64,000 nt of DNA, taken from contig JAMWZW010000011.1 in NCBI GenBank assembly GCA_024281995.1, forward strand, positions 37,572 through 101,571, read 5' to 3'. This DNA is from Nitrosomonas sp. Lineage in GTDB: Bacteria > Pseudomonadota > Gammaproteobacteria > Burkholderiales > Nitrosomonadaceae. The translations under genes and the position numbers were made by a program. Positions 4,766 to 34,745 of the stretch are shown piece after piece (positions within the stretch are counted from its first letter, which is position 1; every line of letters starts with the position of its first letter). The notes under the pieces are model-generated. The model searched no databases. It was not told the DNA's origin and saw only the letters and a program-made list of their open reading frames with translations.

Positions 4766-4804
4766 GTGTCTCAATTCATAGATTACAAGTGTTTAAGTAT
4801 TCCA

Positions 4805-5482
4805 ATGGTTGATCCTATAAATATTCGTATAATCGTCGCTGAGAGTTCTGATCTTGTTCGTATCGGTTTGTGTTCATTGTTTAAAAATTATGCTGCGATT
4901 AGTGTAGTTGCAGAAACCGATTGTTTGGAAGATTTATTAAGCCTTACGGCACAATATAAGCCAGATGTCATTCTGCTTGATCTGCAAATGGGTGGTAGTA
5001 GTTATGCCCAGTATATTAATGAATTGCTAAGTGTATCCCCATGCAGCAAAATATTAGCTTTAGCTTACGATGATGACAAGAATCTATATTTACAAGCATC
5101 TCGATCGGGTGTGTCGGGGATTATTAATAAGGGATACTCATGTAAGTTGTTACTAAAAGCTATTCATGCCGTGCATGCGGGTCAGATTTGGTTTGAGCGA
5201 CATTATATAACGCAATTAACTCAGCAAAAACAATTGATTCCGGATTCATCGCTCGTATTGCAAACCAGTGGGACAGAATTAGATGATTCAAATCTGAGCA
5301 ATAGTGAGCGCCGTATTGCTCTCCTTGCTTGTAAGGGATTTTCTGCAAAAGAGATTAGTAGACAATATTCAATTACCGAAGGAACTGTACGCAATCAGCT
5401 TTCGGCAATTTATAAGAAAATGCGTGTCAAAAAACAAATCGAGCTTTGCCTGAAGGCGCCACTCTATAATTACTTCCGATAA
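4805..5482 (+). CDS. NarL/FixJ-type response regulator (first of a tandem pair)
   Basis: A two-domain DNA-binding regulator. The receiver domain (about 1-125) keeps the phospho-acceptor aspartate (Asp59, in PDVILLDLQM) and the conserved lysine (Lys109, in GIINKG). The usual acidic pair after the first strand is only Glu13-Ser14, so phosphorylation may be altered. The C-terminal LuxR-type helix-turn-helix (about 170-220) contains SNSERRIALLACKGFSAKEIS and TEGTVRNQLSAIYKKM. No sensor kinase is nearby. An alternative GTG at 4766 would add 13 residues; the ATG matches the paralogue's start better. The coding end is shorter than in the paralogue because of an in-frame TAA. Confidence 0.82.
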   Translation: MVDPINIRIIVAESSDLVRIGLCSLFKNYAAISVVAETDCLEDLLSLTAQYKPDVILLDLQMGGSSYAQYINELLSVSPCSKILALAYDDDKNLYLQASRSGVSGIINKGYSCKLLLKAIHAVHAGQIWFERHYITQLTQQKQLIPDSSLVLQTSGTELDDSNLSNSERRIALLACKGFSAKEISRQYSITEGTVRNQLSAIYKKMRVKKQIELCLKAPLYNYFR

Positions 5483-5738: not shown

Positions 5739-6464
5739 GTGACTGAGCAATCTTATGTAAAGATTCGTGTAATTGCGGCAGAAAGCTTTGAACTTGTGCG
5801 TATCGGCTTGCGTAAGCTTTTTGAGAATAATTCTTATATTCAATTGGTTGCGGAAACTGATTGTATTGAGAATTTGTTTAATATGACCGTACGGCATAAG
5901 CCAGATATAATTCTTGTCGATTTGCACTTAAATAATGGTAATTGTGCGGAATATATTTCAAAGCTATTAAGTGCCTGCCCTCAAAGCAAAGTACTAGCTT
6001 TTTCCGATCACAATAATGAATATACTTGCCTGGAAGCTTTTCGTTCAGGAGCAATGGGTATTATTGGCAAGCATCAATCTTCTGAATTGTTATTAAAAGC
6101 CATCCGGGCGATTCATGCAGGCCAAGTCTGGTTTGATCGTCGCATTACCAAATTGCTGTGGCAAGCACAATTTAATACAAATCAAGTACCGGAAATGAAA
6201 CTTAATCCCGAGCAAGTACAGCAATTAAAATTGCGTGATAGTGAACGTCAAATTGCCTATCTTGCGTGTAAGGGCATGTCAGCTAAAGAGATCAGCTCCT
6301 TATTACTTGTTACTGAGAAGACTGTGCGCAATCAACTCTCTGTTATTTATAAAAAAATAGGTGTGAAAAAGCAAATTGAATTGTGCCTAAAAGCTCCTCT
6401 CTACAATTACTTTAAAGATTCCTACATAGCCGGGATATTTATCCCGGAAGATCCCGAAAAATAG
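5739..6464 (+). CDS. NarL/FixJ-type response regulator (second of a tandem pair)
   Basis: A 241-aa paralogue of the regulator just upstream, clearly similar over its whole length. The phospho-acceptor is Asp61 (PDIILVDLHL), the receiver lysine lies in GIIGKHQ, and the LuxR-type helix-turn-helix contains RDSERQIAYLACKGMSAKEIS and TEKTVRNQLSVIYKKI. The acidic pair is again reduced (Glu15-Ser16). It starts with GTG; no ATG fits. The protein runs 16 residues past the point where the first copy stops. Over the stop the DNA forms a perfect hairpin, CCGGGAT and ATCCCGG around TTT, whose weaker counterpart lies after the first gene. The target genes are unknown; the oxidase operon directly downstream is one candidate. 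Confidence 0.82.
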   Translation: MTEQSYVKIRVIAAESFELVRIGLRKLFENNSYIQLVAETDCIENLFNMTVRHKPDIILVDLHLNNGNCAEYISKLLSACPQSKVLAFSDHNNEYTCLEAFRSGAMGIIGKHQSSELLLKAIRAIHAGQVWFDRRITKLLWQAQFNTNQVPEMKLNPEQVQQLKLRDSERQIAYLACKGMSAKEISSLLLVTEKTVRNQLSVIYKKIGVKKQIELCLKAPLYNYFKDSYIAGIFIPEDPEK

Positions 6465-6703
6465 GGACAACTTAGAAGCATTTTTAGGACAAATAGCATC
6501 TATTTGTCAGAAATTACCTCTGCTAGAATTATTTCTTCGATAAATTAAATAGATAGCGTGTATTAGTCTCTGCTGTCTATCTGTTAATCGTAAACTCCAA
6601 ATAAATCGTCAATTTCAAGTACAAACCCGTTCGTCGATCGAGGCAATTTTATTTTACGGCTTGTTGGAGGATTTTTTTTTACATTTAAGGAGGGATGTTA
6701 AGA

Positions 6704-7702
6704 ATGTCGTTTCAAATGAATCAACCTTGCGGTGCCATGGAGTTGTCAGAAAATTCCAATGCCACGCAATCTTCACCCCATCATGTGCTGTTAAAGCAGT
6801 TCTTGGTGGTGTTTTTAGTGTTAGCGCTAGCATTTATCGATAAGAGTCTCGCGGCAGAGCATGTTATCCAATTAACCGCCAAAGAAACGCGGGCTGATGG
6901 TTTTGGTAATGAGTTACTAGCTTATAAGATGGTAAGTCATACAGTGAATGGCCAGGACATTACAAGCCGCTACAGTTCTGAAGCTACGATTCCGGGACCA
7001 ACCATAGAATTGACTGAAGGCGATACGGTCGAGATATCAATTTTTAATGAGATTTTTAATAATGATGTACAAGTACCGGGAATCAGCAAGCAAGTTAGTA
7101 TCCATGTGCATGGGGTTCATTACAACATTCTCAGCGATGGCACACTTAAGGTGATTAATAAGGTAGATGATGAGGGTGCAGGCGCTGGTTTGGAGCCAGG
7201 AGCCGTGTATTCCGTTTATACCTACACCTGGAATGTTGCACCAGGAACTGTCGGAACATGGGCGTATCATGATCACAATTTTGAAACGCACAATGGTGCG
7301 GAACATCGAGGTCTTTTTGGGGCAATTATTGTTAATCCGATCGGCGCAGCCCATTACGCCAAAGAATATGTACTGTATCTAGGTGATGACGCATTTTGGG
7401 GCATGGAAATCAATGGTGCCACTAAGAAACAATCGAAACATGGGCCCAATCCAACATTAACCGCCAAAGAAGACACGCATGTGCGGTTTCATTTAATTGC
7501 TTTAGGTACTGATCTACATACTTTCAAGCTTAATGGTTATCAATGGTTTGATCCGGGAACCACTAATCGTATCAACGAAGTAGCGATTGGTCCGCTTGAG
7601 AAACATGTGTTTAGTATTAAAGCTGAGCATAGCGCTCACTATGAGGATAAAAATCTTTCAAACAAGCTATTGGGTATGAGAGGTAAATTTAATGTTCAGT
7701 AA
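6704..7702 (+). CDS. Two-domain multicopper oxidase subunit A: domain-1 copper sites intact, domain-2 sites lost
   Basis: A 332-aa exported protein (signal segment LLKQFLVVFLVLALAF, cleavage near LAA-EH) resembling two-domain laccases such as SLAC. Domain 1 keeps the trinuclear-centre histidines: His134 and His136 (SIHVHGVHY), His189 and His191 (WAYHDHN), followed by EHRGLFGAIIV as in SLAC. In domain 2 the family motif HTFHxHGH reads HTFKLNGY (from His272), and the HCHxxxHxxxGM stretch is missing. The mature protein has no cysteine, so it cannot bind type-1 copper. The start at 6704 is chosen because AAGGAGGG (6687-6694) lies 9 bases upstream and abuts the earlier ATG at 6695. The stop overlaps the start of the next oxidase gene. 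Confidence 0.85.
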   Translation: MSFQMNQPCGAMELSENSNATQSSPHHVLLKQFLVVFLVLALAFIDKSLAAEHVIQLTAKETRADGFGNELLAYKMVSHTVNGQDITSRYSSEATIPGPTIELTEGDTVEISIFNEIFNNDVQVPGISKQVSIHVHGVHYNILSDGTLKVINKVDDEGAGAGLEPGAVYSVYTYTWNVAPGTVGTWAYHDHNFETHNGAEHRGLFGAIIVNPIGAAHYAKEYVLYLGDDAFWGMEINGATKKQSKHGPNPTLTAKEDTHVRFHLIALGTDLHTFKLNGYQWFDPGTTNRINEVAIGPLEKHVFSIKAEHSAHYEDKNLSNKLLGMRGKFNVQ

Positions 7703-10460
7703 ATGTGAAAACCTTCTCATGGATGATAAGAATAGCAAAATGAATAGCAAAGAAACTTATGGCCTTAACAGACCAATTATGCAATTAATAAAATGTATGG
7801 TGGTTGCAGCGGCATTACTGACTTCATCAGTTGTATTAGCTGCTGTTCATAATATTACGCTGACGGCCAAAACGTTACCGAATGGTCAGCTAGCATACGC
7901 ACTGGGTGGTAATGAAGCAGTGATTCCAGGACCCACTTTATTTGTAAAAGAAGGTGATACTGTTAACGTAACGCTAAATAATGATACCAGTATAAGAGTA
8001 GGGTTTAAAATTCCGGGCTTGCAACAAAGCTCCGCCAAAGTTAAGCCAGGCGAAAATAAAAAATATACTATTAAAGCCAAAAAAGCGGGTACCTACGCGT
8101 ACCATGGCAATATGGACGGAAAGGAATTGCTGGGCTTGTTTGGCGCACTCGTAGTCGACAAGGCGAACGGTCCAGTCGATCGTTACGTAGAAGCGAATGG
8201 TAACACCGTTCCCGTTACGCAATCTGATATCACCAAGCAATTTGTTTTGTTCATGGTGGGATCAACCTTCTGGGGAAGCGAAATTGCAAGTGATGGTACA
8301 CAAAAGCCGCTATGGGCTAATCCACATCCAGGTGCCGTTGAAAATGATATTGTACGTTTTCATATTTTGTCGGTAGGTCCAGGGCATACGTTCCATTTAC
8401 ATGCACACCGCTGGTTTAAAACCGGTACAAACGAAGTGATTGATACCAAATTGCTGGCGGAAGGCTCCGATACCCACTCGTTTACCGTCAAAGCTGGGAC
8501 GGGTGTTGGCGCTGGAAATTGGCAATATCACTGTCACTTGATTGCGCACATGGAAGCAGGCATGCATGGCAGCTTCATCGTTGATCCGGTGGGTGGAGAT
8601 GGTGCCGGTATTGTTGGCGCATCGCCATATGGCAACATATTGTTAGGAACAAAACCGAATGAACCGGGCGTAGTTACTTTCGAAGTCAGCGATGAGCCGG
8701 CTAGCTGGTTCAGAAGTGCGCGTGGTGACGCCATTGTTGGACTACCGTTTGACATTAAAACCAAATCTCTGGAAGTGATTTATCCGGGGAGTAGTGTTAA
8801 CTTCGTCATGTCCGATACCAATGGCGTGCATACTATCAGCTCGCTATTGTGGCCGACCGGTGCACAGCATATGCCTTTCGATCAGTCCAGCGCTTATCGC
8901 GGCGGTGGGTTCGTGACATTGCATACGCCTGGATTGTATGTATTTACCTGTAAAGTGCATCCATACATGTTTGGTGCAGTTATAGTAGATGATCCAGGCA
9001 CTGATCAAGGGTTTGATTTAGGCAATTCTCAAAACAACTACACCATTGATTTAGTCACAGGCCTTAAAAACTTACCTACCAGCAGTGATCTGGCAGTGCG
9101 ATTACTTAAAACATTTTTTATCGCAACCGCACCTGTCAATTGGCAGGATTATTCAACCGGTCAGTGGAATGTGAAATTTCCAAACTTACCGCTCATTACT
9201 TCAGGTGGCGTAGTAAATTTATCAACGCTTAACATAAACGGACAAGCACTTTCCGTGGGATTGACACCGAAAAAACCCGGTGTAGGAGAAGTGTGGATCA
9301 ATACGCAATTTGAGAAAACGGCCGGAAAAGACAAACCCGGTACCAGTACTGTGGTTAATACCTCGACCTGGCAAGTGACGCGTAAAGTAGCGTTACCGCA
9401 AATCAACAACAATAACCCGCACAACATGTGGTCTAACCGGGATCAATCGGTGATTTATCAAACGCAGTGGTTTGATAACAAGTTTTCGATGATCAATCGG
9501 GAAACCGGCGAACTCATCAAAAATATTACAGTAGGGTATTCACCTTCTCATGTGGTGACCATACCGAATACCGATGATATTACGATTGCGATCAATGGTG
9601 AAAATGGTATTTCAATGATTCCGGCTGGCACAACCAATGTAACCAAAATGTTGCCCACCCAGGATCACGGTCATATCTCTGCAAATCCGCACGGTCACTG
9701 GATTAGTGCTGATGGTTCCAAAATTGTAACGCCGAACATCAATACCAATGATATCGGCATCTATGGAACCGATGGTGGCATACACGCCCGCACACCAACC
9801 GGAAATAATGCGCCGGGCGCGCATCCGATTGCCATTGGCATGATGCCGGATTCCAGCAAAATTTATGCTGCGAACTTACTGCATCATTCGTTAAGTGTGC
9901 TGGATGGTAGTACCGGAGCATTACTGACAACTATCGATTTGATTGCTGACTACAATCCGATTACTGGAGCGTTTGTCGATGGCGATCAAAATAACGATCC
10001 GGAAGCTTATGGCATACTGCCGATTCAATCGCCGGTATCTCCGGATGGTAAGGCCGTAGTGATTGCTTCAACGGGTGGACAGATTGTCATCGTCGATACA
10101 GCTACGGACAAAATTGTCAAATCGCTGCTTTGCGATCCGGGTTGTCATGGTGCGAATTTTGGAGCTAAAGAAGGCGGCGGCTACTATGCGTACGTCACGA
10201 CTAAATTCGGTAATAGATTGACGGTAGTCGATCTTGATCCGGACAATGATGGCGATCTCCGCAAAGCAAAAATTGCCGGCTATGTATCATTGGTGGATAC
10301 TGCAAATACTACTAAAGACGATACCGTCAGCAGTTTGCCAGGATTTGGCGGTCAAGGTGTTTTGGCTGTACCCAACGTTTATAATGGCTGGGTGCAAAAC
10401 CTCCCTAAACATTGGAAAGATACTTTGACAGATGCGCAGCAAAATCCAATCGGTCAATAA
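7692..10460 (+). CDS. Multicopper oxidase subunit B with extra cupredoxin and C-terminal beta-propeller
   Basis: A 922-aa periplasmic protein with its signal segment at about 30-51. Domain 1 (about 52-155) has lost the copper histidines: the HxHG site reads FKIPG and YHDH reads YHGN. Domain 2 (about 205-297) is complete: His232, His235, His237 and His239 (GHTFHLHAHRW) and WQYHCHLIAHMEAGM with Cys281. A third cupredoxin (about 325-433) has a type-1-like site, His380 plus Cys420, His423 and Met426. Residues about 560-905 form a YVTN-type beta-propeller. ATG 7692 overlaps gene A by 11 bases and has GAGAGG upstream; 7719, 7740 and 7779 are other possible starts. The substrate is unknown. Confidence 0.83.
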   Translation: MFSKCENLLMDDKNSKMNSKETYGLNRPIMQLIKCMVVAAALLTSSVVLAAVHNITLTAKTLPNGQLAYALGGNEAVIPGPTLFVKEGDTVNVTLNNDTSIRVGFKIPGLQQSSAKVKPGENKKYTIKAKKAGTYAYHGNMDGKELLGLFGALVVDKANGPVDRYVEANGNTVPVTQSDITKQFVLFMVGSTFWGSEIASDGTQKPLWANPHPGAVENDIVRFHILSVGPGHTFHLHAHRWFKTGTNEVIDTKLLAEGSDTHSFTVKAGTGVGAGNWQYHCHLIAHMEAGMHGSFIVDPVGGDGAGIVGASPYGNILLGTKPNEPGVVTFEVSDEPASWFRSARGDAIVGLPFDIKTKSLEVIYPGSSVNFVMSDTNGVHTISSLLWPTGAQHMPFDQSSAYRGGGFVTLHTPGLYVFTCKVHPYMFGAVIVDDPGTDQGFDLGNSQNNYTIDLVTGLKNLPTSSDLAVRLLKTFFIATAPVNWQDYSTGQWNVKFPNLPLITSGGVVNLSTLNINGQALSVGLTPKKPGVGEVWINTQFEKTAGKDKPGTSTVVNTSTWQVTRKVALPQINNNNPHNMWSNRDQSVIYQTQWFDNKFSMINRETGELIKNITVGYSPSHVVTIPNTDDITIAINGENGISMIPAGTTNVTKMLPTQDHGHISANPHGHWISADGSKIVTPNINTNDIGIYGTDGGIHARTPTGNNAPGAHPIAIGMMPDSSKIYAANLLHHSLSVLDGSTGALLTTIDLIADYNPITGAFVDGDQNNDPEAYGILPIQSPVSPDGKAVVIASTGGQIVIVDTATDKIVKSLLCDPGCHGANFGAKEGGGYYAYVTTKFGNRLTVVDLDPDNDGDLRKAKIAGYVSLVDTANTTKDDTVSSLPGFGGQGVLAVPNVYNGWVQNLPKHWKDTLTDAQQNPIGQ

Positions 10461-10481
10461 TTAATTTGACTTAGAAGTTGC

Positions 10482-10520
10482 AAAAAACGGCTACCGGATT
10501 AAAACCGGTAGCCGTTTTTT
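10482..10520 (+). terminator. Strong bidirectional rho-independent terminator
   Basis: A perfect 16-bp inverted repeat (AAAAAACGGCTACCGG at 10482-10497, CCGGTAGCCGTTTTTT at 10505-10520) with a 7-base loop and T/A runs on both sides. It sits between the oxidase operon and the convergent porin gene, so it can end both transcripts. Confidence 0.92.
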
Positions 10521-10588
10521 GTGATGTTTCTTATGACAACGACTATTTCAGGTTAAGAAAGAGCGTTACAGAAATTTTCGATGTTCGG

Positions 10589-18027: not shown

Positions 18028-21000
18028 TTAGATCACTACAAAATCCGCATTGGTCATACTTAATCCAACACCTACTGTGGCAAACTGAATAGCAGTACCT
18101 GCGCCACTGCCATCTGCATCGTACAGCAATGTACCGGTTACATTGTTGTAAATAATGTAATCATCAGCATCCACTGCTTGGGTAGCAATCTTAAATCTAC
18201 TGACTCCAAGAGTACCTGTCGTCGTTAATTTCTTAAATACAGCATTTTCCAGCTTGATCGTGTCATCAATCACAACAAAGTCAGTGATCGTGTCAATATT
18301 GCCCGCGGTGGTGAATTTAAAAATATCTTTACCTGCACCACCGGTTAACACGTCATCACCTAATCCGCCGTCTAAAGTATCATTGCCTGTTCCACCATCA
18401 AGCTTGTCATTGCCAGCATTACCATTTAGCTGGTTAGCGGCTAAGTTTCCAGTAATGGCATTTCCCAAGTCATTGCCGCTGCCATTAATAGCCGAGGTAC
18501 CTGTCAATATGAGATTCTCAACATTGGCAGGTAATGTATAGGTCAAATTAATAGTGACTGTATCCATACCTTCGTTGAGATTATCAGTAACGACGTCAGC
18601 GGTACTATCCAAATAATATGTGTCGTTGCCTGTACCACCATATAGGTAGTCTTGTCCTGTACCGCCATTTAAAATATCATTACCTTCTAAACCATATAAA
18701 TAATCATTTCCACCCAAGCCATTAATGGTGTCATCCGTGGCAAACCCTGTAATACTGTCAGCACTTGCAGTACCTTGCAATACTTTTTGCGCAAGTGTTG
18801 CGCTATCCCAGCTGGTACCATCTGCAAACTCAACCGCATTGAGTAGATATTGGTTGCCACTGATAAAGTGATTCTGCACTGTAATGATTTCGCCGGTGCT
18901 TTGTAGCGTCAGTCGTAAATCGTTACCTGAACGTGTTACCAGAACGTTGTTTAGACTAATGCCAGCAGCAAAGCGCAGCACATCATTGTGATTGGCACTG
19001 GTATCGTAATTACTGATGGTAGTATTGCCATCTCCGGCTGCAAATAGATAGACGTCATTGCCCGCATCGCCTATCAAGGTATCACTAGCGCCTAATCCGC
19101 CATCCAATATGTCATTGCCTGCACCACCATAGAGTACATCCTGGCCATCCCCACCCAAGAGCGTGTCATTGCCGTCACCGCCATACAAGTAATCATTACC
19201 ACCCAAGCCATTCATGGTGTCATCCGTGGCAAACCCTGTAATACTGTCAGCACCTGCAGTACCTTGCAATACTTTTTGCGCAAGTGTTGCGCTATCCCAG
19301 CTGGTACCATCTGCAAACTCAACCGTATTGAGTAGATATTGGTTGCCACTGATAAAGTGATTCTGCACTGTAATGATTTCGCCGGTGCTTTGTAGCGTCA
19401 GTCGTAAATCGTTACCTGAACGTGTTACCAGAACGTTGTTTGGACTAATGCCAGCAGCAAAGCGCAGCACATCATTGTGATTGGCGCTGGTATCGTAATT
19501 ACTGATGGTAGTATTGCCATCTCCGGCTGCAAATAGATAGACGTCATTGCCTGCATCGCCGATCAAGGTATCACTAGCGCCTAATCCACCATCCAATATG
19601 TCATTGCCTGCACCACCATAGAGTACATCCTGGCCGTCTCCACCGAGTAACGTATCGTTGCCATCGACACCATATAGATAATCATTGCCGCCCAAGCCAT
19701 TGATAGTGTCATCCGTAGAAAAGCCAGTGATATTGTCAGCACCAGCGGTACCGGTTAGTACCATCAGTGCAAGATTATCGCTAGTCCAAGTGGTTCCATC
19801 GGTAAACCCAACAGCATTTAACAAATATTGGTTAGTGCTGATGAAGTGGTTCTGGATCGTGACTATTTCTCCTGTACTTTGGAGTGTTAGTTTCAAATCG
19901 TTACCGACACGCGTTGTTATAACGCCACTGGGACTAATTCCGGTTGCAAAGCGCAGCACATCATTGTGATTGACACTGGTATCGTAATTACTGATTGTGG
20001 TGCTACCATCTCCGGCTGCGAAAAAGTAGACGTCATTGCCCGCATCGCCTATCAAGGTATCACTAGCGCCTAATCCGCCATCCAAGATATCGTTTCCTGC
20101 GCCGCCAAACAGGACGTCCTGACCATTACCTCCGAGTAACGCATCGTTGCCATCGCCACCATACAGATAATCATTGCCGCCCAAGCCATTGATGGTGTCA
20201 TCCGTAGAAAAGCCAGTGATATTGTCTGCACCAGTGGTACCGGTCAGTACCATCAGTGCAAGATTATCGCTAGTCCAAGTGGTTCCATCGGTAAACTCAA
20301 CAGCATTTAACAAATATTGGTTAGTGCTGATGAAGTGGTTCTGGATCGTGACTATTTCTCCTGTACTTTGGAGTGTTAGTTTCAGATCGTTACCGACACG
20401 CGTTGTTACAATACTACTGGGACTAATACCGGTTGCAAAGCGTAATACATCGTAGTGATTGGCGCTGGTATCGTAATTACTGATTGTGGTGCTACCATCT
20501 CCGGCTGCGAAAAAGTAGACATCATTGCCTGCATCGCCGATCAACGTATCGCCAGCACCCAATCCGCCATCCAAGATATCGTTTCCTGCGCCGCCAAACA
20601 GGACGTCCTGACCATTACCTCCGAGTAACGCATCGTTGCCATCGCCACCAAACAAAGTATCGGTACCATCATTCCCATCCAAAGTGTCGCTACCAGCCGC
20701 ACCACTCAAATGATCATTGCCAGAGCCGCCCAGTAAGCTATCGTTACCTTCACCACCATTTAGGGTGTCATCCCCGCCTAGACCACTCATGGTATCGTCT
20801 GACGTGAAGCCATACAGTGTGTCATTGCCTGCGGTGCCGGTGAGTATCATGGTTTTTAGTGTAGTTGCGTTCCAACTGGTGCCATCACTGAATTCGATGA
20901 TGTCAAGCACATACGAAGTCGTAGCGTCTTGATAAAAATAGTTGACTACCGTGATCTTTTCGCCCGTGTTTTTTAGGGTGAGAAATAGGTTGCCGGTATC

Positions 21001-24000
21001 ACGGGTGACTATGATGTCTACAGGATTAATCCCCGCCATAAACCGTAATACGTCAGGAGATGTGCTGCTGGTTTCATAGTTATTGATGCTAGTATTTCCA
21101 TCGCCGACCGCAAAAAGGTAAGTGTCGCCGCCGTCATCGCCGATGAGATAGTTTACTCCAGTACCTCCCCGCAGCGTATCGTCGCCGGTGCCGCCAAAGA
21201 GCGTGTCATTACCATTACCACCTTCTAGTATGTCATTTCCACCAGTACCGTTTAATATGTCATTACCATCATTACCGTTCAGAGTATCGTTTCCGCCAGC
21301 ACCGAATATGGTGTCATCACCGTTTAAGCCTTCAATACTTTCATCCGACTCAAAGCCAATAATATTGTCGTTGCCCGCTGTGGCTTGTATGACCATTTGT
21401 TTGATCATTGCGTCATTCCAAAGGGTACCGTCGCTAAATTCAATACCATCTAATGCATAAATACCGCCGCCACCTTCATAAAAGTAATTGCTAACGTTGA
21501 TTATTTTGCCGGTACTTTTTATCGTCAAAAGCAGATTGTTAGAATCGCGCCGTGCGGCTACATCAACAGGGTTGATACCTGCCATAAAGCGCAGTACATC
21601 TTGGCTACTTGAGAGTGTGTCGCCATTATTGATGGAAATATTCCCATCTTCCGCGGCATACATATACGTGTCGTTGCCGGTGTCTCCCCTTAAATGATCA
21701 TTTTCACCACCACCCCCGCGCAAAACATCGTCGCCGTCACCACCCATCAGTAATTCTCGACCTTTTCCGCCATAAAGGACATCATTTCCGCTATTACCAT
21801 ACAGCGTATCATTACCCACACCACCATTGAGAATATCGTTGCTACCTGATCCGCTAATATTAGTATTGCTTGCGCTGCTAAATACAATGTCATCAGGTAA
21901 GGTGCCGCGTTCAATAATACTCACGCCTAAATCTTGCAGAATGGATTGTATCTGAGCGCCATTCATCCCTTCATCTATCCAGCTTCGCAGCATATTAAGA
22001 CCAGTCCAGCCATTTTCTTGCAGCACATTGCCTGCATATTTGTTTAACTCAATCAAGTCAGCTAAAGCTGCTGCGGGATTTGTAGCTTTCAGGCTATCCA
22101 ATAATGAATTTAATGCTGAGAAATTGATGAAAATTCGCGAGGTTTGGTCTACATCCAGCGTTATCTCATTCAGATAATGCGAGAGACGTGTTTGTAAAAC
22201 CATGCTGCCATAGACAGATTCTTTTAAGGTTTCGTAACTTTGTTGCATAAACTCGATTTGCTGGGTTGATAGTGAGACGAAAACTCTCTTTGAATTTGCG
22301 ATGCCTGGTACTGTGCTTACCATATTCTGGAATCCATTGCCTAACGTTACCCGGTCTGTACCAACTGTTACCAGGGGCGAAGCATTAAAGCGTTCCAGCA
22401 CACTAGTCATGTTAACGAGTTCTTGCTGTTGCAATTGTACTGCCTCGTAGGCAGCACGTGTTTCGGAAGTGAGGGCATTCAGGATGTTGGCATCGGTGGT
22501 ATTCCAGTAACCCATATGTTGGTCATAACTTGACCAGGATTCATTGGGCGGCAAGTATAGTAAAAAATATCCTTTCTCAGTTGCTTGCTCAACACTGGTT
22601 TTCATGGTTGAAGTTTGTGCCCAGGCAGCTAACAGGTCATCGAGTTGTGCTTTCTGGTCTGCAGGACTGGACTGATTAACAAAGTTTGTCAAAACACTGG
22701 CTACCGTAGGCGATAAGCTTACGGCTTCGCACAGGTCGCGCACAAACCCGGAACCTTTGGTGTCAGGCAGATTGAGCGCTTGTTCCGTGGTCGGTATGGT
22801 ATCGGTAAATTCCCGATAAAACGGATTATTGGCCAAATCGAGATTTCCGGTTTGTCCTGTACCATCAACCATCAAATGTGCAGCTGCTGCGGTTTGTACA
22901 TTGCCATTTCCGAAATTGACGTTCTTAACTGTGGCATTCAAATTAATGCTGATAATTCCCATCTGTGGCAATGAAAACAGCTCATTCGCGGTGGCAATGC
23001 CATTCTGGTTGAAATCCCGCCATATTTTCACTTGCGCAAACTCTTCGTCATTCTGGTCGAACACATCGTCATGATTAGAATCCAGATCGGATAGCGCATC
23101 GAAGCCATTACTTGCTAAATTACCGTTAGATTTGAGCGTATCCACGCCAAATAGCTCACGGCCCGAATCGATCACACCATTGTCGTTGCGATCCAGAACT
23201 AAGAAGCCATCATCACTCTTAACCCACCCTGTACCTGTTCTAATGCCATCGGCATTGTGATCGAACACTACGACCGTATTACCGATGCCGATGGTTTCAA
23301 TGCCGTCATTATCCAAATCCATTACTAAAGGATCCGTGCGCGGCGGTGTCCAGTTTTTGAACTGCAGGAAAAGATTGTTAACAGTGTTTAATATTTCATT
23401 GAGCTCACCAATATTTTGCATTAGTAGATGCCCAAGTTGACTAATTGCCCACCCAAAATTATCTTTGAGATCCTGGAAAAAATGTGCCATATCGAAACTT
23501 GAAATATTCTTATACAAATCCTCAAAAAGTTTCTCTCCAGCCAATCCGCCGAAATAACCGCCTGCAAGCCCAGCAACTCCGGTAATTAATATACCGGTTC
23601 CAACCCCAACATTAAGACCAGGTACAAGTAACAGTCCAGCCGCAAGCGATGCGCCATATCCAATTGCGATACCGCCAGCCAAACTGCCGGCATGAGCAGC
23701 TAAAATTGCACCGGCCTCAGTTGGTTTGCCACTGTTGTAAGCTTGCTGAGCCTGTGCAATAGCCAAAGCAGTTCCCAACACATCACCGACAAACCCTGCT
23801 TTGTTCAGCAGCCCTTGATATTTGACATACTGTGTCATATCGCTATAGTTCAAACGCAAGCTTTCTAAGGATGCCAGGCGAGTTATTTCAGCGCCGGATG
23901 GAATATCTTTACCAGGCAAACCCAGAGCTTTTCCTAGATAGCTATTGGTATCGACATGCAATTTGCCTGTCGCATCTTTGCCGATTCTCATGTCTGCTAA

Positions 24001-24645
24001 ATCTGCTTTCGATGTTGAGCCAATCAGTTTGATAAGCTCAGCTTTTGCTGCGCTTTCACCACTTAGCAACTTATCTGCGTGATATCGATCTTGCCAGTCT
24101 TTAAGATCAACACCATTAATTTTCTGCCCGGATACCGATGCCTTGTTGAGCAATACCGGAATCTCGGTTTCAGCAGCAACGCTACCAATAGGTGCTGAAG
24201 GCATAATCAGACGAAAATCACCGGTATGCCCATCAACCACTCGTGCAGATGCTGTGTCCCAGAAACTGGTGTTATTGATGCGCACGCCATTTGCATCAGC
24301 TCCTGAATATAAAGCATCAAAATTCAGTCCATCACGAATTGCAGCATCTTGAAGTGCAGTTCTAAAATCACCTAAATTTAAAAGCTTACCTATCTGGGTA
24401 TCAGCAATTGTTTTGACAGAAGAATTGTTGGATAGTGACTCTGCGATATCTTTGGCTTTAAAAATTCTCTCGCCATTTGAGTTGGCAATATTTCCTACTC
24501 CGCCACTCCATAATAATAAGATTGAGTTTCCTGCGCTGGCATCGACAGAATTTACCAGTGCATGCAGTTCGTTGACCGACATTGGATTACCCGCTGTGTT
24601 CCGGGCAGCTATTTCGTTGAGCGCAGATTGAGCGTCCATTTCCAT
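18028..24645 (-). CDS. Large RTX (haemolysin-type calcium-binding) secreted protein, 2205 aa
   Basis: A type I secretion substrate without signal peptide. Regions in order: a helical N-terminus with a glycine-rich hydrophobic stretch at about 312-378 ([14 protein letters not shown]); an EF-hand-like section at about 437-615 ([24 protein letters not shown]) as in FrpC-like proteins; a helical region to ~900; then RTX nonapeptides (GGxGxDxLxGG) from ~925, alternating with haemolysin-related strand domains. Four modules of exactly 163 aa repeat at about 1326-1978. The last ~100 residues are a serralysin-type secretion tail ending DFVVI, shared with other proteins in this window. ATG 24645 has TAGGAGA just upstream; an upstream TTG is less likely. 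It could be a toxin, adhesin or surface-layer protein. Confidence 0.88.
18712..20667 (-). repeat. Four tandem 489-bp coding repeats in the RTX gene
   Basis: The landmark CCCAAGCC recurs at 18713, 19202, 19691 and 20180, a period of exactly 489 bp (163 codons). Copies 1-2 are almost identical to each other, as are copies 3-4, while the two pairs differ more. This nested pattern points to stepwise duplication of one RTX module (calcium-binding nonapeptides plus one haemolysin-related strand domain). Recombination between copies could change protein length, and short-read assembly could collapse them. Confidence 0.9.
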
Positions 24646-24652
24646 ATTTCTC

Positions 24653-25003
24653 CTACAAATTAGGGGCAAAAGTGACAGTCAAACTTAAGACATTTTTTCG
24701 TGAAGCTGCAAAACCAAATGTGTCGAGCGCTTCTGCAATCAATCTATGCAGCTTTGATTGGTCTTGTTTTACATGAGGTGGTGCATAAATTTCTAGAACT
24801 TGCCACTCTATTTCATACCCATCTTTTAATTGATTAATTTTTTGATACGCTAAAAAATTGACACTCTCTCCAGAAAAAATTAGATTAAATTTATGAGGAG
24901 ATTTTTCTGGCCCTGGTCCGCTCACTTCTCTTAAAACAATACCCCGCTCTCGATCTATGGTCTGCCATTCGTAGTTTTCTAATCGCTCATTTACAAATCC
25001 CAT
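24653..25003 (-). CDS. Small protein of unknown function preceding the RTX gene (116 aa)
   Basis: A soluble-looking protein without signal or membrane segment, opening [20 protein letters not shown] and predicted to be mixed alpha/beta. A good ribosome site (AGGAGC, 8-9 bases before ATG) supports it. Its stop lies 7 bases before the RTX start codon, so the two are certainly cotranscribed. I do not recognise the family. By position it could be a dedicated chaperone, an immunity protein, or an activating factor for the RTX protein; it does not look like an HlyC acyltransferase (too short, motifs absent). Confidence 0.7.
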
Positions 25004-29052: not shown

Positions 29053-29595
29053 ATGGCTGATCCTGTTTTTGAATTTGTGGGTGCTAATCCGTTTGGTTTG
29101 AGTGAAGGTAGTCCAACTTTTATAGATATCGATGACGATGAAGATTTGGATGCTTTGGTAGGCAATTATGATGGCAATACGTTATTTTTTAGGAATATAG
29201 GAACAGCTAGTAATCCATTCTTTGCAGCCTCCGTTACCAATCCGTTTGGTTTAATTGATGTGGGGTTTTCTGCCAGCCCTTTCTTGGTTGATATTGATGG
29301 CGATGATGATTTGGATGCTTTCGTAGGCAACTATGATGGTAATACGTTATTTTTTAGGAACACAGGAACCACTAGTAATGCACTTTTTGCACCCCCCGTC
29401 ATCAATCCGTTCGGCTTAAGTAATGTAGGCGCCGATGCCGAACCGACTTTTGCTGACATCGATAGTGATGGCGATTGGGATGTTTTTGTGGGAAATTATA
29501 ATGGTAATACGCTATTTTTTGAGAATACAGGAACCGCCAATAATCCGCTCTTTGCAGCTACCATTACCAACTCATTTGGCTTGAATGATGTGTGA
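29053..29595 (+). CDS. FG-GAP repeat protein, N-terminal part of a frameshifted FG-GAP/RTX protein
   Basis: Residues from ATG 29053 (GGGAGTA ribosome site) form three and a half repeats of about 55 aa with the pattern NPFGLxDVG...FVDIDxDxDLDAFVGN and TLFFRNTGT. These are FG-GAP/VCBS-type calcium-binding beta-propeller blades. The frame ends at TGA inside the fourth repeat, right after FGLNDV. The next frame continues the same repeat (ASPTFVDIDGDNDLD) with four bases of overlap. Removing the dinucleotide TG from the run GATGTGTGAGC restores a repeat of the normal length. So this is either a broken gene, a sequencing slip, or a pair translated by stop-restart through the GTGA overlap. Confidence 0.75.
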   Translation: MADPVFEFVGANPFGLSEGSPTFIDIDDDEDLDALVGNYDGNTLFFRNIGTASNPFFAASVTNPFGLIDVGFSASPFLVDIDGDDDLDAFVGNYDGNTLFFRNTGTTSNALFAPPVINPFGLSNVGADAEPTFADIDSDGDWDVFVGNYNGNTLFFENTGTANNPLFAATITNSFGLNDV

Positions 29596-32210
29596 GCGGA
29601 AACGCAAGCCCTACTTTTGTAGATATTGATGGTGATAATGATCTTGATGCTTTTGTGGCTTGGTATGAAGATTTTTATGGTGTTAGTAACACATCATTTT
29701 ATAGAAATATAGGAACAATCCACAAACCGGCATTCTATCGTGACAATTTGAGTCCATTTGGCTTAGCTTTAGGTGGTTATGGCAAGCCTGCATTTGTAGA
29801 TATTGACGATGATGATGATATAGATGCTTTCTCGAGCACGCTGTTTTTTCAAAACATGGGAACAGGAAGCAGACCGTCCTTTTCTCCGAGTGGGTCATTT
29901 GATTTAAATAATGAGTATGGATTTACTTCCTTTACTTTTGTTGATATTGATGGCGATGGTGATTTAGATGCTTTTACAGGTAATCGAAAGCGTTTTGATA
30001 ATTACGATGAAGGTGGCGATACACTGTTTCTTGAGAATATAGGGACGATTTCTAATGCGCATTTTACTTCTGCTATTGTCAATCCGTTTGGTTTGAATGA
30101 TGTGGGCAGCTTTGCAAGTCCTACCTTTGCTGATATCGATAGTGATAATGATCTGGATGCTTTCGTAGGTAATGAGGCGGGTAATATTTTGTTTTTTGAA
30201 AATATAGGAACGATTAATAGTCCAGTTTTTGTTGCTGTTTCTACCAATCCGTTCGGTTTAAGTAGTGTGAATGAATGGGCTATACCAACTTTTGTAGATA
30301 TCGATGATGATGCTGATTTGGATGCTTTTGTAAATAATATGTTTTTTAAAAATACAGGTACAGCAACTAATCCGGTGTTTGCTGCTCCTGTGACAAATGC
30401 ATTTGGATTAACTGGCTCTAATCCTACTTTTATAGATGTCGATCGTGATGGCGATCTTGATGTTTTCATGGGTGCTGGACCTACTTCATTTTTTAGAAAT
30501 ACAGGAACCGCTGAGAATCCAGTATTTTCTTTTGGAGGAAGCAGTCCATTTGGTTTATCTGGAGGTTCTTATCGAGGTGAAATTGTCAGCCAGCCATTGG
30601 TAGATATTGATGGTGATGGAGATTTAGATGCCTTTGTGGCCGTCGTTTCTTCTTATCCTTATGATCGAGGATCGGGAAGTTTTCTGATCAACAATCACGC
30701 GCCAAATGTTGCCAATTTAACGGTACCGGAAACGTATACCAAAAATACACCATTAAATCTGAAAAATATCGTTATCAGCGATCCGGATAGCGCTAATGTG
30801 ACCGCAGAATTAACATTATCCAACAGTGCCGCGGGCCGCTTGAGTACGGCCACATCGGGATCGGTAACTTCCACCTATAACGCCAGCACAGGTAAATGGA
30901 TAGCCAGTGGTGCACTGGCCAATGTCAATGCCCTGCTGGCAGGTGTTGTGTTCACGCCGGCAACAAATTTCTCCGGTGCTTTTACGATTAACGCGAGTAT
31001 TTCGGATGGAGTAGCGGCACCGCTGCTTGCGAGTAAAAATTTCAGTGTGTTACTGGTTAGCACTGCAGGCAATAACATTTTGACCGGTTCCACATTTGAC
31101 AGTGATACCCTAACTTATGCTTCCGCTACCGGACCGGTAACTGTTTCGCTAAACATCACGACGCAACAAAATACCATTAACGCCGGATTGGATACCATCA
31201 CCCAGGTTGAAAATCTTATCGGTAGCAATTTTGCCGATAATCTGACCGGTAATTCCGCTAACAATAGTTTGGAAGGCCGGGGTGGCAACGATACGCTGAC
31301 AGGTTGGTCTGGCGCGGATACCATGATTGGCGGGGCGGGGAATGACAGCTATTTTGTCGAAAACAGCAAAGATGTGGTAACTGAGAACTCCAATCAAGGC
31401 ACTGATCTTGTGAGCAGCCGCTTGACATATACGCTGCCTGCCAATGTGGAGAATCTGATATTGACCGGCACTGCCGCAATCAATGGCACGGGTAATGACC
31501 TGAATAACACATTGACGGGAAACAATGCTGCCAATGAATTAAATGGGCAAGCGGGCAACGATAGGCTCAATGGCGGGGGCGGCAACGACACGTTGATTGG
31601 CTGGTCCGGGGCGGATACTATGATTGGCGGAGCGGGTAACGACAGCTATTTTGTCGAGAATGCAGGTGATGTTGTCACCGAGGTTCTCAATCAAGGGAGC
31701 GATCTTGTCAGCAGCCGGTTGACGTACACACTCCCCGCCAATGTGGAGAATCTCACATTAACCGGAACAGCCGCGGTCAATGGTACGGGCAACGGCCAGG
31801 CCAACATTATCATCGGCAATACCGCTGCCAATCAGCTAAAAGGCATGGTGGGCAACGATATTCTCGATGGCGGTACAGGCAACAATGTGCTGACGGGTGG
31901 AACAGGTAACGACTTTTTCCGTTTTGCCAGCAACGGCCATGTTGACACGATCGCCGACTATAACGTAGCCAATGACACCGTCCAGCTTGACAATGCGGTA
32001 TTTACTGCATTAACGGCTACAGGCACACTGGCTGTCGGGCGGTTCAGGGTGGGTGCACAAGCATTGGATGCCAATGACAATGTCATTTACAACAAAACCG
32101 CAGGAACGCTTTGGTACGACGCAGATGGCAATGGTGCAGGTGCTGCAGTGCAGATTGCCGTCATTGGCAGCGGATTGAATATCACCAATGCGGAGTTTGT
32201 GGTGATTTAG
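29592..32210 (+). CDS. FG-GAP/RTX protein, main part (872 aa) of a frameshifted gene
   Basis: Begins with GTG overlapping the stop of the preceding frame. It holds the rest of repeat 4 and FG-GAP repeats 5-10 (to about residue 355), then a cadherin-like domain (about 365-500, with PDSANVTAELTLSN), then RTX nonapeptide blocks mixed with [18 protein letters not shown] beta-roll units. A serralysin-type C-terminal tail (YDADGNGAG, ending EFVVI) matches the large RTX protein. It is probably exported by type I secretion, with the propeller as a surface or binding module. Together with the upstream frame the whole protein would be about 1050 aa. Its own ribosome site is poor, so independent expression is doubtful. 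Confidence 0.75.
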   Translation: MSGNASPTFVDIDGDNDLDAFVAWYEDFYGVSNTSFYRNIGTIHKPAFYRDNLSPFGLALGGYGKPAFVDIDDDDDIDAFSSTLFFQNMGTGSRPSFSPSGSFDLNNEYGFTSFTFVDIDGDGDLDAFTGNRKRFDNYDEGGDTLFLENIGTISNAHFTSAIVNPFGLNDVGSFASPTFADIDSDNDLDAFVGNEAGNILFFENIGTINSPVFVAVSTNPFGLSSVNEWAIPTFVDIDDDADLDAFVNNMFFKNTGTATNPVFAAPVTNAFGLTGSNPTFIDVDRDGDLDVFMGAGPTSFFRNTGTAENPVFSFGGSSPFGLSGGSYRGEIVSQPLVDIDGDGDLDAFVAVVSSYPYDRGSGSFLINNHAPNVANLTVPETYTKNTPLNLKNIVISDPDSANVTAELTLSNSAAGRLSTATSGSVTSTYNASTGKWIASGALANVNALLAGVVFTPATNFSGAFTINASISDGVAAPLLASKNFSVLLVSTAGNNILTGSTFDSDTLTYASATGPVTVSLNITTQQNTINAGLDTITQVENLIGSNFADNLTGNSANNSLEGRGGNDTLTGWSGADTMIGGAGNDSYFVENSKDVVTENSNQGTDLVSSRLTYTLPANVENLILTGTAAINGTGNDLNNTLTGNNAANELNGQAGNDRLNGGGGNDTLIGWSGADTMIGGAGNDSYFVENAGDVVTEVLNQGSDLVSSRLTYTLPANVENLTLTGTAAVNGTGNGQANIIIGNTAANQLKGMVGNDILDGGTGNNVLTGGTGNDFFRFASNGHVDTIADYNVANDTVQLDNAVFTALTATGTLAVGRFRVGAQALDANDNVIYNKTAGTLWYDADGNGAGAAVQIAVIGSGLNITNAEFVVI

Positions 32211-32780
32211 CAGCAAAAGCTGGTGTTTTTGAAAGTTGGTGATCAGTAATCGGATCTGTTGATTCGAAGTTTTTGTAAATTTTACTAGATCAAATATTAA
32301 TAAATGTGTTAAACAGTGAACCTTAATCAGCGGAAAGTCGTGTTTTGTTAAGGCACCGACCTTATGGCTAATGAGATTGCTGGTAAGTGGTTGAGAGTGT
32401 TTTTACAAGTGCAATCGTAGCATGGTTAATAGGTTCATTGTTTATCGCTGCTTGATTGATTGAGATATATCAATGAATTGATTCTTTGAAGTATTAGAAT
32501 AATTATGTATATATGGTTCGTGAAAAATATCACATAAATATTCCCTTTAGGCAGATAGACTGCTGTTACATGCTACAAATGAGTTTTACATTGTTCATAA
32601 ATAAAGGGAATAACCTTATAAGTACACGCCAGGTGCGGCGATAGTAAATCGACGCTTGCCATTATCGAAGCATGAATAATCCACAATTGCTATCGATTCA
32701 TAAGAATATATCTAGATTGGCAAGAATTAGTAGTAGCTTGCACAAGATCTTAATTTAATTAATTATTTTTGGAGGAAAGT
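32211..32780. other. Intergenic region, 570 bp, between the two FG-GAP/RTX genes
   Basis: AT-rich, no supported open frame. It probably contains the promoter of the downstream FG-GAP gene. I found no terminator-like stem with a T-run after the upstream gene and no RNA gene. Confidence 0.45.
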
Positions 32781-34745
32781 ATGTCAAATCCAGAATTCAC
32801 CTATTCGGCAACAAACCCTTTTGGTTTGAGCGACGTAGGTATGCTGGCATCACCGTCATTTGTAGACATTGATAATGATGGGGATTTAGATGCTTTTATT
32901 GGTGAAGTATTCGGCGACACGTTTTTTTATCGCAACACGGGGACTATCAATAATCCTGTATTTGCCGCGGCGATTAAGAATCCGTTTGGTTTAAAAAACT
33001 CAGGTACTTATGTGAATCCTGAGTTGGTAGATATCGATAATGATGGGGATTTGGATGCTTTTATCGGTAATTTTGATGGCAATGTATTGTTTTATAGGAA
33101 TACAGGAACAGCCGTCAATCCCGTTTTTGCGACAGCCGTTACAAATCCGTTTGGACTCGGTGATGTAGGATTCCAATCCAGTCCCACATTTGTGGATATT
33201 GATAACGATGGCGACTTAGATGTTTTCTCGGGTAATTATGATGGCAACATTTTGTTTTTTAGAAATACCGGTACAGTGAGCAATCCAACTTTTGCTGCGG
33301 CTCAAACAAACCCATTTGGTTTAGAAGATGTCGGTTTTCAAGCTAACCCCGATTTGGTTGATGCAGACAATGATGGCGATTTGGATGCTTTTGTAGGCAA
33401 CCTGGATGGTAACACGCTGTATTTTCAGAATACGGGTACATTAAATAATCCAGTTTTTGCAGCTCCACTGACCAATCTTTTTGGTTTAACTGACATTGAT
33501 TCTAATGCGAATCCTACTTTTGTGGATATTAATGCTGACGGCGATTTGGATGCATTTATAGGTGAAAGATTAGGTAGTACCGTGTTGTTCGTAAATGATG
33601 CAACTGCTGTCTTTCGTGTAAGCACGGTAGCAAATGAAGTTTTGACAGGAACAGCTTCTCTTCAGGATACCGTCACTTATGCAACACTTTCATCGTCCGT
33701 GAATGTTTCATTGACAATTACCACGCAACAAAATACCGGTGGTGGCGGGTTGGATACTCTCACGGCATTAGAAAACCTGATTGGTAGCAATTTTGACGAT
33801 ACCCTGACAGGCAATTTAAGAAAAAATGTTATTACCGGTAGAAACGGCAACGATACAATTGATGGTAAAGCCGCTGCAGATACCCTGATTGGTGGAAATG
33901 GTGATGATATTTATTTTGTTGATAATGCGGGAGATGTGATTATTGAATATGTGGGTCAAGGCATTGATCAAATTAACAGTAGCGTAACCTTTACCCTTCC
34001 GTTTAATGTCGAAAACCTCACGTTATTCGGTGCAGCGGCTGTGAATGCAACGGGCAACGATCTAAACAATAAATTGATCGGCAATTCAGCAGCCAATCAA
34101 TTAAATGGCGGTGATGGCCATGACATTCTCAATGGTCTGGGAGGTGCAGACACAATGACTGGTGGGTTGGGATTTGACAGCTATATCGTTGATAATGTGG
34201 GGGATACTGTTATCGAGAATTCCGCTTCAGGAACCGATAGCATTAGCAGCAACGTGACCTATACATTACCTGCCAATGTAGAAAACCTCAAATTAAATGG
34301 CGCTGCGGCAATTAATGGTACCGGCAATACGCAAGCCAATAGCCTTACTGGAAATACCGCCAACAATCAACTCAATGGTGGTGGGGGCAATGACATACTT
34401 AACGGTGGAACGGGCATAAATACATTAACTGGCGCAGCGGGGAAGGATATTTTTCGTTTTAATTCGACGGGCCATACAGATACGATTACTGATTATAATG
34501 TGGTTGATGACACTTTTCAGCTTGAAAACTCGATATTTACTGCGTTAGGTTCTCCTGGTGTTTTAGCAGCAACAAAATTTAGAATCGGCACACAGGCATT
34601 GGATGCCGATGATCGTATCATTTATAACAGTACCACTGGAGCGCTGACATACGATGCCAATGGCAACGGCGCTGGCGGAACGATGCAGATTGCAGTAATA
34701 GGAAGCGGATTGAGTATGACAAACGCGGATATTGTGGTTATTTAA
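32781..34745 (+). CDS. FG-GAP/RTX secreted protein (654 aa)
   Basis: An intact relative of the frameshifted gene upstream. ATG 32781 has GGAGGA directly ahead; a TTG 12 bases earlier is an alternative. Residues about 10-280 are five 55-aa FG-GAP repeats (NPFGLSDVG, FVDIDNDGDLDAFIGN, NTGT). Then come RTX/beta-roll units with GGNGDD and TFTLPFNVENLTLFGAAA, and the shared type I secretion tail (YDANGNGAGG, ending DIVVI). There is no cadherin-like domain. Aspartate-rich loops indicate calcium binding. It is probably a surface adhesin or matrix protein; no transporter genes lie nearby. Confidence 0.85.
   Translation: MSNPEFTYSATNPFGLSDVGMLASPSFVDIDNDGDLDAFIGEVFGDTFFYRNTGTINNPVFAAAIKNPFGLKNSGTYVNPELVDIDNDGDLDAFIGNFDGNVLFYRNTGTAVNPVFATAVTNPFGLGDVGFQSSPTFVDIDNDGDLDVFSGNYDGNILFFRNTGTVSNPTFAAAQTNPFGLEDVGFQANPDLVDADNDGDLDAFVGNLDGNTLYFQNTGTLNNPVFAAPLTNLFGLTDIDSNANPTFVDINADGDLDAFIGERLGSTVLFVNDATAVFRVSTVANEVLTGTASLQDTVTYATLSSSVNVSLTITTQQNTGGGGLDTLTALENLIGSNFDDTLTGNLRKNVITGRNGNDTIDGKAAADTLIGGNGDDIYFVDNAGDVIIEYVGQGIDQINSSVTFTLPFNVENLTLFGAAAVNATGNDLNNKLIGNSAANQLNGGDGHDILNGLGGADTMTGGLGFDSYIVDNVGDTVIENSASGTDSISSNVTYTLPANVENLKLNGAAAINGTGNTQANSLTGNTANNQLNGGGGNDILNGGTGINTLTGAAGKDIFRFNSTGHTDTITDYNVVDDTFQLENSIFTALGSPGVLAATKFRIGTQALDADDRIIYNSTTGALTYDANGNGAGGTMQIAVIGSGLSMTNADIVVI

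Follow-up and report, generated by a model that had tools for sequence, protein, structure and literature searches.

Genes A and B in the window

We analysed a stretch of 64,000 nucleotides (nt; the window) from a Nitrosomonas sp. genome of 2.88 Mb in 21 contigs, in which two adjacent genes, A and B, lie head to tail on the same (+) strand. Both encode two-domain multicopper oxidases (MCOs) similar to the small laccase SLAC, with complementary loss of copper ligands. The genes and the relevant parts of their products are as follows.

6695..7702, + strand: gene A, 335 amino acids (aa); probable conserved start, the ATG at 6704
7103..7111, + strand: A domain 1, motif I (H137-x-H139), trinuclear-site ligands kept in 59/59 A
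7268..7276, + strand: A domain 1, motif II (H192-x-H194), trinuclear-site ligands kept in 59/59 A
7514..7546, + strand: A domain 2, degenerate motif III (LHTFKLNGYQW), first His kept, HxH gone
7622..7684, + strand: A domain 2, degenerate motif IV, without HCHxxxH, Met328 kept
7692..10460, + strand: gene B, 922 aa; start uncertain
7839..8171, + strand: B domain 1, cupredoxin without its copper ligands; purifying selection persists
8382..8414, + strand: B domain 2, motif III GHTFHLHAHRW (H232 type 1; H235 and H237 trinuclear), kept in 58/58 B
8520..8564, + strand: B domain 2, motif IV WQYHCHLIAHMEAGM (H280, C281, H282, H286, M291), kept in 58/58 B
8667..8993, + strand: B domain 3, cupredoxin with the type-1 set H380, C420, H423 and M426, in 58/58 B
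9270..10424, + strand: B YVTN-type propeller, assigned by fold match, with invariant His H577, H620, H667, H669 and H819

Complementary half-sites

We fetched 60 stretches from relatives and kept, with the window included, 59 A sequences (280-400 aa) and 58 B sequences (850-980 aa). Fragments and broken frames were left out (A in L045, L068, L069 and L093; B in L054, L067, L078 and L093), and no B was found in L069.

The four His of A domain 1 (H137, H139, H192 and H194) are invariant in the 59 full-length A sequences, none of which has HCH or HxxHxH in domain 2. Position 318, which corresponds to the type-1 Cys, is Asp in 56 of the 59, position 319 is His in one, and there is no Cys in mature A in any of them. 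The eight ligands of B domain 2 (H232, H235, H237, H280, C281, H282, H286 and M291) are invariant in 58/58 full-length B; none of these sequences has a domain-1 HxH motif, positions 106, 108 and 140 are never His, and H138 persists in 38 of the 58. An earlier note, made from the letters of the window alone, had claimed both the complementary ligand loss and the absence of Cys from mature A, and the two claims hold throughout the collected relatives (59/59 A, 58/58 B).

The predicted structure of A aligns end to end with small laccases in a fold search. Type B two-domain MCOs are the best sequence and fold matches of A and the best sequence matches of the first 300 residues of B, and the two cupredoxin domains of small-laccase fold that characterize type B are present. 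The type-1 ligands of domain 2 were found in B (58/58) and not in A, which lacks the Cys in 59/59; as the chains differ in this respect, we characterize the pair as a split variant in which A alone is not an oxidase. Neither chain carries all eight His of a trinuclear site: four are in A, four in B, and eight are obtained only when both are taken together. We presume that the usual MCO scheme applies, which assigns four trinuclear-site His to A, four to B and the type-1 site to B.

In type B two-domain oxidases, according to the portion of PMC13151041 consulted, each trinuclear site is formed jointly by domain 1 of a monomer and domain 2 of its neighbour. Given this geometry, the half-sets of A and B are those that would face each other, and a trinuclear site shared by A and B is the best explanation of the ligand patterns.

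The models of both proteins open with a signal-peptide-like helix (residues 29-47 in A and 28-45 in B), so that A and B are probably exported. Thus, A is a two-domain MCO paralogue, probably exported, in which of the trinuclear copper site just the half in domain 1 is left; B, probably exported as well, joins such a paralogue to a type-1 cupredoxin and a propeller of YVTN type.

Pairing and selection

A full-length B stands beside 56 of the 59 A genes of this first set, with spacing from -62 to +62 nt; for the other three (L054, L067, L078) the adjoining B is broken or shortened. In the named contigs (L094-L159, a set overlapping the first) a B frame lies next to 63 of the 68 A genes. The complementary pattern, with domain-1 motifs and no HCH in A and domain-2 motifs only in B, is present in 61 of these 63 pairs, the exceptions being a truncated A (L130) and a truncated B (L139). 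Where A is unpaired (L110, L113, L121, L127, L134), the sequence ends there or the frame is broken. Some genomes have two or three A-B pairs, each a unit (L080 and L081 in tandem; G053 with L049, L085 and L086). The pair is therefore conserved across genomes, a check which the earlier note had proposed. Another argument of the note, that the 11-base overlap of the genes fits stoichiometric synthesis, does not generalize, since the overlap occurs in 11 of the 56 pairs only; we rejected it as general evidence for translational coupling.

Ratios of nonsynonymous to synonymous substitution rates (dN/dS; Nei-Gojobori), computed for the window genes against two close relatives, were 0.02-0.09 for A domains 1 and 2, B domains 1-3 and the propeller; several of these values are rough, with synonymous distances >1, and a third comparison was saturated except in the propeller. 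With such low dN/dS the ligand-free domains (A domain 2 and B domain 1) are under purifying selection and maintained.

One could suggest that A and B form separate homotrimers with separate jobs and are paired through shared regulation only. The relatives described in the consulted portion of PMC13151041 are homotrimers, and both cupredoxin domains of each protein are under purifying selection, as this suggestion would have it. Still, every interface of such homotrimers would pair a live domain with a dead one, giving no complete site, and the invariance of the half-sites would be left without explanation. We regard separate homotrimers as improbable.

A presumed unsplit form in methanotrophs

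A contig scan with the A alignment, in which the best 80 of 99 relatives were retained, gave 79 loci. Thirteen of these (L160-L172, in 12 genomes) differ from the rest in having one complete oxidase, M. Their records are labelled Methylocaldum, Methyloglobulus, Methylomicrobium (two), Methylothermaceae (three loci), Methylohalobius, Methylocystis (two), Methyloversatilis (one) and only Gammaproteobacteria (two). M is a two-domain oxidase of 311-365 aa with every ligand present in 13/13 (HVHGVH, YHDH, HTFHLHxH and HCHVxQHMQxGM). It is followed in 12 of the 13 loci by a cupredoxin-propeller frame, P, homologous to residues about 300-900 of B; P is cut by the contig end in L165, and no P frame scored in L167. 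As M and P are separate genes in methanotrophs, B looks like an M-like oxidase fused to P, and the fusion in turn makes an interaction of M with P in methanotrophs plausible.

A tree of 66 rows places A (23 rows), B (22) and M (15) each on one side of a branch, with support of 99, 100 and 86, respectively. We then compared the columns conserved in M, counting a column as kept only in A or only in B if it was retained in at least 90% of one protein and in under half of the other. For domain 1, 25 of 91 M-conserved columns are kept only in A and 4 only in B; for domain 2, with 77 such columns, the corresponding numbers are 5 for A and 23 for B (Fisher p = 2e-7 for the contrast of 25:4 with 5:23). 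The loss is thus complementary beyond the ligands themselves. M presumably represents the state before the A/B duplication, and duplication, complementary loss and fusion would be the simplest history compatible with these sequences.

Other oxidases of the window genome

A search of the window genome with PF07731 gave ten matches. Besides B these lay in frames of 376, 540, 573 (two matches), 625, 630 and 643 aa and in a composite frame of 1007 aa (two matches). This genome may well have oxidases of other kinds that are complete. Among the other MCO frames, searches with A, B and M recovered only the 1007-aa one, and weakly (E about 1e-11).

The 1007-aa frame (L237:2-2620, - strand; G000 contig C1) has MCO-like domains and a His-rich insert, and its second part has, by eye, the look of kelch or galactose-oxidase-type repeats. 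The 625-, 643- and 630-aa frames lie within about 6 kb of each other (G000 contig C21:3498-9666). Another genome of the genus (G006, L238:3672-4658) has, besides its own A-B pair, a two-domain MCO of another subfamily, complete by eye and 33% identical to M over the matched part.

With other MCO genes in the genome and with A or B frames broken or shortened at some loci (e.g. L054, L067, L078 and L093), one might think that A or B is decaying, as a pseudogene or through an assembly frameshift, and that its task falls to another, intact oxidase. Conservation across the gene family already contradicts this: there are 59 and 58 full-length genes with dN/dS of 0.02-0.09 and invariant ligand halves, and the other MCO genes are not close relatives in the A, B or M searches. 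We consider decay barely credible.

Additional domains of B and a reading with no trinuclear site

The propeller of B was recognized from structure-search matches spanning it, and domains 1-3 were predicted from sequence; the closest PDB matches of the propeller are generic YVTN propellers. We aligned 42 cupredoxin-propeller proteins (21 B, 11 P and 10 stand-alone homologues). The type-1 set of domain 3 is invariant in all 42 rows, and so are the propeller His H577, H620, H667, H669 and H819. Several of these His fall, by eye, in similar motifs (NPHNMW, SPSHV, NPHGHW and CHG), so that a metal site in the propeller hub is possible. In the tree of the 42 rows B tails, P proteins and stand-alone forms make three separate groups.

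The propeller of the window B also contains a CxxxCH motif (window positions 10131-10148; C814, C818 and H819), with the His present in 42/42 rows and one or both Cys absent from a few. A stand-alone cupredoxin-YVTN propeller protein of 610 aa is encoded elsewhere in the window genome (L002:1396-3228, contig C9); it is 51% identical to the B tail and has no adjoining oxidase gene. Its orthologues within the genus are mostly 76-92% identical to it, three listed ones being 59-60% identical.

B itself holds two complete type-1 sets, A has four invariant His, and the eight trinuclear-site His are in neither chain. These facts would also suit a system with no trinuclear site, in which B, with its two type-1 coppers and its propeller, serves electron transfer, and A, as an accessory or assembly factor, binds copper through its four domain-1 His at a mononuclear or dinuclear site. 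However, H235, H237, H280 and H282 would be needless for electron transfer, yet they are invariant in 58/58 B; A keeps, besides the ligands, other domain-1 positions of M (25 only in A, ligands included); and the retained sets sum to exactly the canonical 4 + 4. We find such a system unlikely.

Proposed mechanism and its weight

We propose that a complete two-domain MCO of the type B, small-laccase-like kind was duplicated and gave rise to two exported paralogues, A and B, which would work as an obligate hetero-oligomer. The trinuclear site would form at the A-B interface, with A contributing H137, H139, H192 and H194 and B contributing H235, H237, H280 and H282; B would also supply the type-1 copper (H232, C281, H286 and M291). 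Electrons would enter at this type-1 copper, probably relayed from the type-1 cupredoxin of domain 3, and pass via the Cys281-His path to the shared site, where O2 would be reduced to water. The ligand-free domains, A domain 2 and B domain 1, would be structural. We put the probability of this reading as a whole at roughly 0.78.

Several considerations weigh against it. The structure prediction covered single chains, so that physical contact of A and B is inferred. A closed three-membered ring of A and B holds only one live interface between A domain 1 and B domain 2; either the assembly is unlike the known homotrimer or one site in three is used, with A2B, AB2, a larger ring and a simple AB pair all conceivable. 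The tree gives A, M and B as a three-way split with a distant outgroup, compatible with more than one order of duplication. The correlation of 0.91 between pairwise distances of A and of B (56 pairs) is weak support, being expected for any co-inherited neighbouring genes. Finally, no expression or copper data tied to A or B were found in the literature searched.

The split heteromeric oxidase imagined in the earlier note is thus supported in part, by ligands, pairing, selection, the fold of A and the methanotroph relative; contact and copper content are inferred. A trimer, one of the assemblies that the note names, sits less well with the single live interface of a three-ring. Two of the findings that the note had named as speaking against it do exist in a weak sense. 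One, homologues of A with an intact domain 2, exists in the M proteins; it counts weakly, since these form a separate clade, occur in other organisms and have a pre-duplication look. The other, a third complete oxidase in the same genome, is likewise weak: other MCO genes are present and may well include complete ones, but the A, B and M searches recovered none of them as a close relative. Absent from the note were the type-1 cupredoxin and YVTN propeller of B and the unsplit methanotroph form. Overall, the proposal of a shared A-B site is strengthened by the methanotroph form, enlarged by the extra domains of B and weakened only in its overlap argument.

To our knowledge, the trinuclear site of an MCO comes from one gene, whether the enzyme is a monomer or a homotrimer, and heteromeric MnxEFG, too, includes an oxidase subunit that is complete. 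Neither a split two-domain MCO nor an A-B gene pair was described in the literature that we searched, which consisted of abstracts and passages of papers. Should the proposal be correct, A-B would be, within that literature, the first MCO with its catalytic copper cluster divided between two genes. It would also show with unusual clarity how complementary loss can turn a homomer into an obligate heteromer, and the presumed unsplit form can still be compared in methanotrophs. Annotation as 'separate laccases' would then be misleading, as neither A nor B could work alone, and the pair would be a conserved uncharacterised copper enzyme, probably located in the periplasm of ammonia-oxidising bacteria, a compartment in which copper redox chemistry has a central place.

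Locus surroundings, distribution and possible function

The following features flank the pair.

4766..5482, + strand: LuxR-type response regulator, first in tandem; closest NCBIfam model NarL
5739..6464, + strand: LuxR-type response regulator, second in tandem, directly upstream of A
10478..10524, + strand: intrinsic-terminator-like hairpin of 20 pairs, just 3' of B, from a terminator scan

The terminator scan gave 5 terminator-like sites against a mean of 4.3 in shuffles, the hairpin at 10478-10524 having the longest stem; no terminator-like site was seen on the + strand at the A-B junction. The NarL score of the first regulator is 89.5 bits, below the cut-off of 250. LuxR-type response regulator frames lie upstream on the same strand at 35 of the 75 loci whose neighbourhoods were compared; these 35 include no locus from methanotrophs. 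At the methanotroph oxidase of L161 there is an Rrf2-family, NsrR-like regulator, with an NsrR score under the cut-off, and related helix-turn-helix frames occur at 5 methanotroph loci in four genomes; the one scanned is SufR-like, also with a score under the cut-off.

Elsewhere in the window, three large proteins carry RTX-type calcium-binding repeats (18028-24669, - strand; 29592-32210, + strand; 32769-34745, + strand), two of these neighbours with FG-GAP repeats; they are possibly secreted surface proteins.

A is present at E <1e-70 in 64 of 149 relatives: 61/85 in the genus, 3/5 others in the family and 0/59 among the remaining members of the order. Among 369 genomes drawn at class level, apparently one and the same draw in both searches, we observed M/A/B-type matches (E up to 1e-20) in 4 genomes and the ammonia monooxygenase (AMO)/PmoA family (PF02461) in 11. 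PF02461 was present in 3 of the 4 genomes with M/A/B matches versus 8 of the 365 others (Fisher p = 8e-5). The three shared genomes include the window's own and another of its genus; with the own genome removed, the figures are 2/3 versus 8/365 (p = 0.002). A phylum draw of 398 gave no match outside the window's genus better than 3e-16, which indicates a narrow family. PF02461 was found in 13 of 19 tested genomes holding A/B or M loci. The six misses say little, as they include a record named N. europaea, an organism that has AMO. We do not claim absolute restriction of A/B to the guild of ammonia and methane oxidisers, and the contig scan, in which the best 80 of 99 relatives were retained, does not allow one to infer absence from other ammonia oxidisers.

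One of the 4 genomes with M/A/B-type matches (G189, of the window's class) carries, on an 11-kb contig (L174, contig C17), an M nearly identical to that of Methylocystis rosea, and a PF02461 search of it gave no AMO/PmoA match; this M-type oxidase may reflect contamination, a misbinned contig or a recent transfer. We also rejected independent origins outside Nitrosomonadaceae for three loci of metagenome-assembled genomes, labelled as follows: L141 (Chromatiales), L147 (Pseudomonadales) and L134 (Nitrospirae). These group with L088 of the window's genus inside the A tree, and their genomes have no PF02461 match, which points to transfer or misbinning.

The neighbouring regulators hint at nitrogen-oxide or redox control; a cuprous oxidase serving copper tolerance is as likely as a nitrogen-oxide or redox role. 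One could speculate that A-B is a dedicated periplasmic copper oxidase of organisms with copper monooxygenases, taking electrons from nitric oxide (NO) or hydroxylamine at a His site in the propeller hub and passing them via two type-1 coppers to the split trinuclear site. The propeller His, the NsrR-, SufR- and NarL-like regulators and the AMO/PmoA enrichment are hints only, and we consider this conjecture, taken as a whole, quite doubtful; if true, it would make A-B a candidate for the NO-handling step of ammonia oxidisers that has no enzyme assigned to it. In N. europaea two MCO genes rise together late in phage infection (log2 6.16 and 6.14; PMC13356812, 2026); the main text of that source, as consulted, gives no locus tags by which they could be linked to A-B.

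Comparison with known systems

The propeller of B resembles, in fold and at the level of repeats, the surface-layer protein 1l0q, the beta subunit of hydrazine synthase and the lactonase-type N2O reductase (L-NosZ). We rejected membership of the propeller in the L-NosZ or hydrazine-synthase-beta families, the scores being about 20-60 bits against cut-offs of 700 and 560; the likeness is probably generic repeat similarity. L-NosZ scores reached at most 59.7 bits among the 10 cupredoxin-propeller proteins scanned, and the window B had no L-NosZ match at E 0.001. NosZ needs a CuA site with two Cys; domain 3 of B has one, C420, in C-x2-H-x2-M. Nitrous oxide reductase was absent among the 50 structure matches listed for B, which excludes nothing.

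In ceruloplasmin and other six-domain MCOs the cupredoxin domains form a ring, and the trinuclear site persists at only one of the three interfaces between domains, as it would in a closed three-membered ring of A and B. Unlike A-B, which is made of two gene products, ceruloplasmin is one polypeptide and has no propeller. The manganese oxidase MnxEFG is an MCO that works as a complex of different gene products. It differs from A-B in that MnxG has a complete site alone and the small subunits are not MCO paralogues.

The type B enzymes SLAC, Ssl1, SgfSL and CjMCO share with A-B the two cupredoxin domains, the type-1 site in domain 2 (within the pair, in B but not in A) and the expected inter-chain trinuclear site. 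They are homotrimers with all ligands in one chain, whereas in A-B the ligands are divided between paralogues and B adds a type-1 cupredoxin and a propeller. The methanotroph M and P (L160-L172), a relative by sequence alone, have the same gene order and belong to the same family, M being homologous to A and to domains 1 and 2 of B; here a single M chain carries every ligand, and P is encoded by a gene of its own.

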